Assembly (NCBI RefSeq): GCF_014696675.1
Contig: NZ_JACJQN010000001.1
Span: 124,001 to 188,000, forward strand
DNA: 64,000 nt
Source of the DNA: Phormidium tenue FACHB-1052
GTDB taxonomy: Bacteria > Cyanobacteriota > Cyanobacteriia > Phormidesmidales > Phormidesmidaceae
Direction: 5' to 3'
In this document: piece by piece, positions 38,678-41,127 of the stretch
How the letters are laid out: each line of letters starts with the position of its first letter
Position numbering within the stretch: position 1 is the first letter of the stretch
Translations under genes and position numbers: made by a program
Notes under the pieces: model-generated
What the model was told of the DNA's origin: nothing
Seen by the model: the letters and a program-made list of their open reading frames with translations, nothing else
Databases searched by the model: none

Positions 38678-39910
38678 TTGAAAATTTTACATATCAACCA
38701 GTCAGATATATTAGGTGGAGCTGCTATTGCTGGGTACCAGCTACATGGCGCTCTACTCAATCAGGGCTTAGACTCCAAGCTATTAGTAGGGCAGAAGAAA
38801 ACTGATGACCCTCGGGTTGCCCAAGTACCTCGCCATCAATGGCTTGAAAATCAGCTCCAGCGATTGACTCACAGAGGCGGCTTTAACTATGTTAACCACA
38901 TTAGCAGCTTCGCCATACCCAAACATCCCTTCTTTGCCGCAACAGATATCCTTAACTTCCATAATCTTCACAACAGTTACTTCAGCTATTTAGCTATTCC
39001 ACGCCTTACAGAACACAAACCCGCCGTGTTTACACTTCACGACATGTGGAGCTTTACTGGGCACTGTGCCTATAGCTATGACTGTGCTCGTTGGCAAACG
39101 GGTTGTGGGCATTGCCCCTATCCTGAAACCTACCCTGGCATACGTCGCGATAGCACCCATTTGGTATGGAAGCTAAAAGATTGGATTTACAATCACTCTA
39201 ATCTCACGATAGTTGCCCCCAGCCGCTGGTTAGCCGAACAAGCGAAAGCCAGCGTTTTAGGGCATTTTCAAATAAACCACATACCTAACGGGGTTGACCC
39301 CGATGCCTATCAACCCCTTGAACGCGAGCTTTGCCGCACAGCATTAGGAATACCTGCAAAGAAAAGAGTCATGCTATTTAGCGCCATTAATCTTACAGAT
39401 TCGCGGAAAGGTGGCGATTTGCTGATTAAGGCATTGAACCAATTGCCTGCCACCCTAAAGAAAGACTGCCTCTTGCTAACCCTCGGCCATCCATCTAAGC
39501 AATTAGCTACTTTATTGGACATACCCCTAATGAACTTGGGCTATGTCAGCAGCGATCGCCTCAAGTCCGTAGCATATTCTGCGGCAGATCTCTTTCTTTT
39601 TCCTACCCGTGCCGACAACTTGCCCCTAGTGCTACAAGAGAGTATGGCCTGTGGCACTCCTATGGTTTCTTTTGACATAGGTGGGGTGTCAGACCTAGTG
39701 CGTCCTGGCATTACCGGCTATCTGGCTCAACCTGAAGACATAGACGATTTTTGCAAAGGCATAGTAGAATTGCTAGACGATAATGCAAAGCGCCAAGTCA
39801 TGGGCGAAAATTGCCGCCGCATTGCCCTAAAAGAATACACCCTTGACCTGCAAGCCATCCGTTACTCACGTCTTTACCAAGAAATACTAGATGAAAGCAA
39901 TCCTAACTAG
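38678..39910 (+). CDS. Glycosyltransferase family 4
   Basis: 410 residues, GT-B fold. The N-terminus MKILHINQSDILGGAAIAGY is standard for GT4 and is reached only from a TTG at 38678. The donor domain has RVMLFSAINLTDSRKGGDLL and the E-x7-E-like block NLPLVLQESMACGTPMVSFD. A cysteine-rich insert (CAYSYDCARWQTGCGHCPYP) is found in WcaC/WbaZ-like relatives. Composition is intermediate and a HIP1 site reappears near 39552. Confidence 0.88.
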   Translation: MKILHINQSDILGGAAIAGYQLHGALLNQGLDSKLLVGQKKTDDPRVAQVPRHQWLENQLQRLTHRGGFNYVNHISSFAIPKHPFFAATDILNFHNLHNSYFSYLAIPRLTEHKPAVFTLHDMWSFTGHCAYSYDCARWQTGCGHCPYPETYPGIRRDSTHLVWKLKDWIYNHSNLTIVAPSRWLAEQAKASVLGHFQINHIPNGVDPDAYQPLERELCRTALGIPAKKRVMLFSAINLTDSRKGGDLLIKALNQLPATLKKDCLLLTLGHPSKQLATLLDIPLMNLGYVSSDRLKSVAYSAADLFLFPTRADNLPLVLQESMACGTPMVSFDIGGVSDLVRPGITGYLAQPEDIDDFCKGIVELLDDNAKRQVMGENCRRIALKEYTLDLQAIRYSRLYQEILDESNPN

Positions 39911-39947: not shown

Positions 39948-40164
39948 TATTCATTCATAAGTAAGACCTAAGTCTTACAGCATTTTACATAAGCATTTCC
40001 CTGGAATACTTATTCCTCTATAAGTAAGCTTTAAGTTTTTCCAGCATGCCGCATAAGCATTTCTCTAGATTGCCTATTCATTCATAAGGAAGGCTTAAGC
40101 CTTCCAGCGTACTCTATAAGTCTTTCCTTAAATTGCTTATACATTCCTAAGCAAGACTCAAACA
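39948..40164 (+). repeat. 63-64-bp tandem repeat, 3.4 copies, each with two hairpins
   Basis: Units begin at 39948, 40011, 40075 and 40138 (last one partial), each opening TAT(T/A)C. Each full unit has a first palindrome (39961-39978 GTAAGAC-CTAA-GTCTTAC; 40088-40105 a perfect 18-base palindrome GGAAGGC-TTAA-GCCTTCC; weaker in unit 2 at 40024-40041). Each also has a second, looser stem ATAAG...CTTAT (39989-39993/40009-40013; 40116-40120/40136-40140). Between units 1 and 3 two base pairs of the first stem change on both sides. The repeats fill most of the 305-base gap between two glycosyltransferase genes; the rest of that gap shows nothing. Confidence 0.8.
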
Positions 40165-40215
40165 ATGGATGATTCAGCTTGAGCACTACGTTTTTTGTAA
40201 TCTACTGCACCGTTA

Positions 40216-41127
40216 ATGCAAACAAGTTACAGCACTCTGACGCTTCAAGATTTACCTCAGCCTCCAGCAGGTAAGGTAGGGTGGCCTTGGACAAAAGCCA
40301 GTAAACCATCTCCAAAGTACATGGCTGATGGTTCAGAGTGGCCGCGCGTTAGTGTCATAACTCCAAGCTATAACCAAGGGCAATTCCTAGAAGAAACGAT
40401 TCGTTCAGTCTTGCTCCAGGGATATCCAAACCTAGAGTACATAGTTATTGATGGCGGCAGCACTGATAATTCAGTTGAGGTGATTAAAAAATACCAATCT
40501 CATATTACTCATTGGGCTAGTAAAAAAGATAATGGACAAGCTCATGCAATCAATAAAGGATTAAAAATTAGTACTGGTTCTATCCTAGGTTGGGTTAATA
40601 GCGATGATTTATATGCAAAAAATACAATTACAAAAATTTCCCAGAAGTTTCATAAAAACCAAGCTGCCATATTAGTTCATGGCAACCGAATTTTGATTAA
40701 TGAGAATAGTGAAGTTATAGGATGGTCGCCTCTTCCACCCTTTAGGTCAGAAACAGGCTTATTCAACGTCTGTTCAGAAACCACTTTCTGGAAGCGAACT
40801 GCTATGACACAGACCGGTTTCCTGAAAGAAGAGCTAAAGTTTGCCATGGATCTGGAGTTCTTTAGTCGGTTGTACCTATGTGGAAGATTCTTGAAACTAG
40901 ACGATTATCTAGGTTATTTTCGCTGCTACAAATTAAACAAGAGCTCGACCATTCCCCATATAGGCCAAGAAGAGGCATTTAGAGAGTGGAAAATTATTTT
41001 TGGGAACGACTATACTACAAAAAAGATTCAATCAAACAAGTTAGCTCTGCTGAAGGCAATGATTGTCAATCCGGGGCTAATAAGCTTACCGTACATATCA
41101 TACAAATTATCAAATCTACTCAACTAA
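40216..41127 (+). CDS. Glycosyltransferase family 2
   Basis: 303 residues, GT-A fold. RVSVITPSYNQGQFLEETIR opens the nucleotide-binding domain, EYIVIDGGSTDNSVEVI follows, and the metal-binding site is SILGWVNSDDLYAK. These are the standard GT2 motifs. A 40-residue N-terminal lead rich in Pro/Lys precedes the domain. Probably adds one sugar of the repeat unit. Confidence 0.88.
   Translation: MQTSYSTLTLQDLPQPPAGKVGWPWTKASKPSPKYMADGSEWPRVSVITPSYNQGQFLEETIRSVLLQGYPNLEYIVIDGGSTDNSVEVIKKYQSHITHWASKKDNGQAHAINKGLKISTGSILGWVNSDDLYAKNTITKISQKFHKNQAAILVHGNRILINENSEVIGWSPLPPFRSETGLFNVCSETTFWKRTAMTQTGFLKEELKFAMDLEFFSRLYLCGRFLKLDDYLGYFRCYKLNKSSTIPHIGQEEAFREWKIIFGNDYTTKKIQSNKLALLKAMIVNPGLISLPYISYKLSNLLN

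Follow-up and report, generated by a model that had tools for sequence, protein, structure and literature searches.

A degenerate array of 21-bp units between two glycosyltransferase genes of a Nodosilinea cyanobacterium, a candidate helically phased DNA site array

The window, by which we mean the whole 64,000-nucleotide stretch of DNA analysed, comes from a cyanobacterial genome that belongs to Nodosilinea. At the locus considered here, an intergenic repeat lies between two glycosyltransferase genes, as follows.

38678..39910, + strand: upstream gene, a glycosyltransferase of group 1 / family 4 type, 410 aa (Pfam PF00534, PF13692, PF13439)
39948..40189, no strand assigned: the whole array, about 11 degenerate units with a 21-bp period and one 22-bp step (TRF, autocorrelation, unit scan)
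40216..41127, + strand: downstream gene, a family 2 glycosyltransferase, 303 aa, starting 26 bp past the array (Pfam PF00535)

The intergenic repeat is made of degenerate 21-bp DNA units, two helix turns each. Tandem Repeats Finder (TRF) scored the block at 166 with 72% matches. In the autocorrelation of the block, lags 21, 42 and 63 were prominent and lags 85 and 106 also followed; the leading lags, tested from lag 8 up, were 63, 64, 85 and 21. An earlier, sequence-only reading of the same DNA had described a tandem repeat of 63–64 bp starting at 39948, 40011, 40075 and 40138. These starts are correct (TRF; spacings 64/63) and the repeat is genuine, but its basic unit is 21 bp by both autocorrelation and unit scan: 63 is 3 x 21, and the alternation between 63 and 64 arises from a single 22-bp step. 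That reading had also ended the array at 40164, whereas the unit scan follows it to about 40189. The cores of the approximately 11 units span 39961–40189 and succeed one another in steps of 21, 21, 21, 22, 21, 21, 21, 21, 21 and 21 bp. They are listed below from the unit scan, with no strand assigned, the first coordinate of each being its core start.

39961..39978: unit 1 core, GTAAGACCTAAGTCTTAC, a near-perfect dyad, the first stem of the sequence-only reading
39982..39999: unit 2 core, ATTTTACATAAGCATTTC
40003..40020: unit 3 core, GGAATACTTATTCCTCTA
40024..40041: unit 4 core, GTAAGCTTTAAGTTTTTC
40046..40063: unit 5 core, ATGCCGCATAAGCATTTC, following the sole 22-bp step
40067..40084: unit 6 core, AGATTGCCTATTCATTCA
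40088..40105: unit 7 core, GGAAGGCTTAAGCCTTCC, a perfect 18-bp dyad, the second stem of the sequence-only reading
40109..40126: unit 8 core, GTACTCTATAAGTCTTTC
40130..40147: unit 9 core, AAATTGCTTATACATTCC
40151..40168: unit 10 core, GCAAGACTCAAACAATGG
40172..40189: unit 11 core, ATTCAGCTTGAGCACTAC, the most degenerate of all units

Both 7-bp stems reported earlier are present as written: GTAAGAC CTAA GTCTTAC at 39961–39978 (unit 1) and GGAAGGC TTAA GCCTTCC at 40088–40105 (unit 7), which differ at pairs 2 and 6 on both arms. The claim that every repeat carries paired stems does not hold for the middle of the three repeats, in which GTAAGCTTTAAGTTTTTC has no stem. A promoter and terminator scan found nothing inside the window array.

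A blastn search over the whole genome (5.8 Mb, 36 contigs) matched the window array to itself alone, and a plasmid search by DNA gave no match. A sequence search revealed relatives in congeneric genomes, and a sequence model of three units identified arrays in 13 of the 28 congeneric genomes, among them a second array of the window genome, at C33:107574-107752. The sequence-only reading had named a lack of relatives elsewhere as something that would refute it; in the genomes searched, relatives were abundant. Among named genomes, the downstream gene has its best match in Nodosilinea sp. LEGE 07298. Synteny of the flanking glycosyltransferase pair, gene order included, extends to four further genomes of Nodosilinea. 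Related but diverged arrays lie between the same two genes in G022, G008 and G009, and in G024 the array at this locus is reduced to about one unit, the flanking genes showing no visible damage; copy number varies among the orthologues of this array. We found no evidence for a recombination site that swaps glycan cassettes, as had been suggested: the flanking genes are syntenic in four species, and related arrays also occur away from glycan clusters.

The 21-bp spacing recurs in other arrays of the genome. In 0.87 Mb of the window genome, noncoding tandem arrays were found at lag 21 (n=7), lag 15 (n=3), lag 14 (n=2) and lag 20 (n=1), and none at lags 19, 22 and 23; most of these lag-21 arrays differ in sequence from the window array. 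By lag scan, a lag-21 peak was seen in two other cyanobacteria and was missing in one. The 0.4 Mb scanned of G040 contained no lag-21 array, which indicates that the arrays are not universal, and the lag-21 count of G218 is inflated by 7-bp STRRs. Across the class, the histogram of exact-pattern spacings had a modest peak at 21 among the matches listed, with at least 12 places, spread over 9 genomes, against a mean of about 4. Adjacent units were exactly 21 bp apart in 201 of 204 cases. The chaining used for this count disfavours any other spacing, a penalty that the lag scans do not carry. At locus A, a set of orthologous arrays on ten contigs, the ten orthologues have no indels over 236 columns despite at least 207 changes, compared with 4 indels and 72 changes in the 73 columns of the adjoining flank (array vs flank, p = 0.005).

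Several further repeats built on this period were noted. At L189:2095-2350 the window genome has a 21-bp repeat of a fourth type, in which GCGATCGC (HIP1) motifs abound. Two of its other arrays, L151:2098-2476 and L154:1213-1430, have in common another unit, approximately CTCGGCACGCCGAGTAATTTT, with the dyad CTCGGC/GCCGAG. The gene 255 bp downstream of the L154 array looks by eye like a DNA methylase; the 152-aa gene beside the L151 array has arrays in 5 of 11 orthologues, at least one of which may be due to chance, and was left out of the linkage counts given below. In G218, young near-identical 21-bp arrays (CTTAAGCCTTAATGTTGTAAC; L192 and L193, G218:C1:1143970-1144123 and 1154996-1155044) could be used for gauging array growth. 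A 42-bp repeat (2 x 21; CACCTAATCACCCATATAGGG) at L012:1370-1500 of G009 lies about 1.6 kb from a gene of the second protein family described below.

The arrays of locus A lie about 70–200 bp upstream of a conserved small gene. The protein family linked to the arrays is multi-copy (1–14 copies per genome; about 118–150 aa), has the consensus MARxKRxSxxLEKAERRAAGLxSI...LDLGNG.T...YN..LS.VD...E..L...SE.ML.GVA..YGKDSxEYEMAGGVRKSERxR and is basic at both ends (N-terminal MARxKRSS..., C-terminal YGkDSxEYEMAGGxRKSERKRP). The window genome (G000) has six copies, on C33, C2 (two), C13, C23 and C12, and none on C1. Pfam, NCBIfam and PDB sequence searches with the linked protein returned nothing significant, and no known DNA-binding fold was recognised by sequence. 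Its one PHROG match carries a function-less annotation (E 7e-4), and a search for it among viral contigs found none.

Upstream DNA was long enough at 57 family loci. At 50 of them a strong lag-21 array was present in the 900 bp before the gene, as compared with 1 of 56 downstream, and the control lags 17, 19, 20, 22 and 23 gave 0 or 1; these loci are mutually related, and the counts are to be read as non-independent trials. The arrays lie about 200–500 bp upstream, with a median of 312 bp from array centre to gene start. In previously unexamined genomes, 14 of 15 loci had an upstream array and none a downstream one, the contig of the lone exception extending only 249 bp upstream of the gene. 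In a second family, distantly related and like the first mainly at the C-terminus (hhalign probability 95.5, E 1.6e-8), an upstream array was present in 16 of 20 cases. Two loci of this family are given here.

L184:792-1175, - strand: second-family gene with an upstream 21-bp array at 1342-1500
L364:1519-1917, strand not given: second-family gene with an upstream 21-bp array at 1286-1453

Proteins of the second family (MPSTDTTRRLRP...YGSDSNEAQAIGYKKKSERKRPRR) number about 7 copies per Nodosilinea genome. Two named plasmids, pA of Kovacikia minuta (NZ_CP083583.1) and pn1 of Nostoc sp. UHCC 0926 (NZ_CP117772.1), carry gene and array; both were found through protein search alone. In G010 (L061:3938-4165 and L097), an ORF that by eye is transposase-like lies between the locus-A array and the gene, which are thus separated. 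The GC-rich genome G401, which is of another class and could be contamination, encodes a protein ending in VVGQYGDDSPQYAAVGGTKRSERKRPVRK (L346:1498-1947, - strand) with a near-identical 21-bp array on its 3' side, at 1335-1500; the pairing may therefore extend beyond Cyanophyceae.

Likeness between array profiles tracked likeness between the linked proteins (Mantel r 0.70; 0/500 permutations). Proteins with a score ratio above 0.6 had a common array type, and below this ratio array likeness was at chance level. This link between array type and protein subgroup would fit cognate pairs, and vertical descent of a linked pair would give the same. The window array has no adjacent gene of the YGxDSxE...KSERKRP family, glycosyltransferase genes lying on both sides. 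Its profile matched locus-A-type arrays at 0.69-0.80 and the C33 array of its own genome at 0.70, compared with 0.46 or less for the other tested arrays of that genome (null 99th percentile 0.46). Because its profile matches the C33 array and not the other tested arrays, the window array is an orphan, or stray copy, of the array type that accompanies the gene at G000:C33:107041-107397. Further orphan arrays of the C33 type are L060 and L067/L070. G024, with its array remnant at the window locus, lacks a close C33-type gene, its best match having 58% identity; a single case of this sort proves nothing. CRISPR-like direct repeats at L060:1150-1914, which translate into FKSHYPARGRK units, lie beside the orphan array of G007 contig C48.

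The paired changes between the two stems had been taken as a pointer to selection on a folded element, and we therefore weighed whether the glycan operon contains a folded element, of RNA or DNA, whose hairpins are under selection. Compared with dinucleotide shuffles, the window block has the more stable fold (z -3.3 on the + strand, -2.2 on the - strand), but this surplus vanishes against shuffles that keep the 21 column compositions, from which the window array does not stand out in folding (z -0.8, -0.65). Some other arrays out-fold such column-preserving shuffles on both strands (z -3 to -5, the extreme being -4.9). The unit consensus, approximately NNN-GAAAGGCTTAAGCCTTTC, has dyad symmetry, with A at position 2 in 93% and T at position 15 in 92% of units. 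Since the 244 units were collected with a symmetrised matrix, symmetry is better judged on the gene-linked arrays picked by lag 21 alone; it was significant (p<0.05) in 29 of the 50, about 40% having no significant symmetry. The inner dyad pairs did not covary over the 244 units (z at most 0.6; pair 7-10, z -4.2), and the consensus fold of the ten locus-A orthologues was unsupported by covariation (term +0.8). In the four congeneric orthologues of the window gap the stems, that of unit 1 included, are mostly broken, with 66% of cells paired vs 60% in shuffles; the one positive signal in these fold tests was a slight surplus of paired changes that remained across five rows. An Rfam search of the block gave no match at gathering score, with sub-threshold chance matches only. 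Taken together, paired changes fail as a general pointer to a selected fold, by the orthologues, by covariation among units and by the column shuffles, and selected hairpins are a very improbable explanation of the window block.

Perfect stems do occur at locus A, of 20 bp in L055/L056, 14 bp in L057, 17 bp in L058 and 23 bp in L065, in different columns each time; the orthologues that do not bear them have about half the pairs at those columns. The alignment suggests that one arm was rewritten as the reverse complement of the other. Such rewriting is the signature of template switching at quasipalindromes, as described in two reports (PMC8794818, PMC7202029). Template switching between inverted repeats would yield lineage-specific perfect stems at differing columns, and would thereby produce apparent compensatory changes without selection for a fold. 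It is a general caution that template switching or dyad-symmetric sites can mimic compensatory changes in this way.

We give about an even chance to the explanation that the window block is a helically phased DNA site array, belonging to a module with small-protein genes. This explanation starts from the period, the upstream linkage, the private sequences, the non-coding character and the lineage-specific perfect stems of the arrays, and from these it predicts protein binding and an effect on transcription. The sole property common to all arrays is their two-turn spacing, not their sequence, which points to double-stranded DNA read from one face. A phasing of 21 bp, or two turns, would place all units on the same face of the duplex, and the reader of this DNA would be a protein repeating every 21 bp; the linked protein, with its basic ends and private arrays, would be the obvious candidate. 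Dimers or a polymer of it may bind side by side, one per 21 bp, to form a nucleoprotein array that would control how the protein's own gene is transcribed and, where the array is an orphan, how the neighbouring operon is transcribed, here the glycosyltransferase operon. The position of the array upstream of the gene suggests autoregulation, and the orphan arrays suggest further targets. Arrays would gain or lose 21 bp at a time, and nearby arms would be homogenised by template switches from one quasi-palindromic unit to another. Among the three options offered in the sequence-only reading, a protein-binding array fits best, the structured RNA and the recombination site being unsupported. Against the phased-site explanation, the array of G024 has shrunk without visible gene damage, the linked protein resembles no known DNA-binding fold by sequence, symmetry is not significant in about 40% of the gene-linked arrays, and the several arrays that out-fold column-preserving shuffles leave room for a role of RNA.

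Three other accounts of the arrays were weighed against these data. It is unlikely, in our estimation, that the arrays are functionless tandem repeats made by slippage duplication and decay, with a purely historical link to the gene through joint moves and duplications. Young near-identical arrays (L338, L358; lag-21 identity 0.95) do stand beside decayed old ones, copy number does vary among the window-locus orthologues and template-switch tracts are visible. However, slippage alone would give many periods, whereas the period is 21 in every sequence type; the 207 changes in the locus-A array came with no indels; and neutral repeats would not account for arrays at 50/57 loci upstream vs 1/56 downstream. 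We consider it quite unlikely that transcription of the upstream array yields a repeat RNA able to bind the protein encoded downstream, in the style of type III toxin-antitoxin systems, with the orphans as antitoxin-like decoys. The layout, with private tandem repeats on the 5' side of a gene for a small basic protein, resembles that of ToxIN (PMC5086642, PMC8860590), and the fold surplus of several arrays, down to z -4.9, agrees with such an RNA. Nevertheless, an RNA repeat need not keep exactly 21 nt regardless of sequence, the fold advantage is near-equal on both strands and comes from differing stems in differing species, the ten-orthologue consensus fold of locus A lacks covariation support, the linked protein is unlike known toxin families, and the L346 array sits 3' of its gene.

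A length of 21 bp is also 7 codons, so that the array could be an upstream gene for a heptad-repeat peptide, and many locus-A arrays are spanned by a frame that stays open for about 90 codons. Yet stops interrupt the + frame of most orthologues, dN/dS is 1.14 in the most open - frame, which shows no third-position excess, open frames occur in 15 and 21 of the 50 arrays vs 18 and 17.6 in column shuffles, and none of the six frames stays open across 170 bp of the window array. With no conserved open frame under purifying selection, we rejected this barely conceivable coding origin.

Returning to the phased site array, we place slightly less than even confidence in the broader proposal that such arrays and their genes constitute an undescribed cyanobacterial module, whose orphan arrays would form a regulon or a chromosome-organising network, the window array being a target site in a polysaccharide operon. 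In the open-access literature, to which the search was confined, heptanucleotide and TAACTGA repeats were found, and nothing on 21-bp arrays or on the protein family. If the proposal is correct, an unnamed protein family is widely paired with private, helically phased arrays in cyanobacteria, each genome holds many natural specificity variants, the reading of its own array by each protein is directly testable, and repeats left blank by annotation pipelines acquire a meaning.

In the iterons of Rep-controlled origins, direct repeats recur roughly every two helical turns, close to the gene for the protein that binds them. The present arrays are like them in having repeats two helical turns apart near the gene of a candidate binding protein, but differ in that the linked protein has no Rep match, that there are 1–14 copies per genome and that orphan arrays occur. 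An iteron array was rejected for the window locus, where there is no adjacent Rep initiator gene and the flanks are glycosyltransferases. TAACTGA direct repeats are intergenic tandem repeats in cyanobacteria (PMC4679880). Like these, the heptanucleotide STRR and the 37-bp LTRR, the present arrays are intergenic cyanobacterial tandem repeats, and 21 is a multiple of 7; unlike them, the 21-bp arrays have a period of neither 7 nor 37 and are tied to one gene family. Identity with STRR was rejected on the low values at lags 7 and 14 in most gene-linked arrays and on the leading lags of the window array, and identity with LTRR on the absence of a 37-bp unit from its autocorrelation. Type III toxin-antitoxin systems (ToxIN/CptIN/TenpIN) similarly have locus-private tandem repeats 5' of a small protein gene; the unit here is shorter and constant in length, and an RNA fold lacks covariation support. 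A toxin of the ToxN/CptN/TenpN superfamily was rejected, the linked protein having no Pfam or NCBIfam match.

Template-switch mutation at quasipalindromes (PMC8794818, PMC7202029) shares with the present case the rewriting of arms and the apparent compensatory changes; here it would act on a phased array, in at least 4 lineages and at different places. The partition arrays, namely the parS heptads of pSM19035 with omega and parC with ParR, differ in that the unit here is always 21 bp and degenerate and nearly all matches lie on chromosomal draft contigs. The linked protein has no ribbon-helix-helix sequence link (Pfam, PDB sequence search), and no ParA or ParM partner was recognised by eye among the flanking ORFs of locus A. 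The likeness to these systems (PMC9499535, PMC9426499) is that private short direct repeats in helical order lie beside the gene of a small protein, which binds DNA there and may do so here, and that the array sequence sets, or here would set, the specificity.
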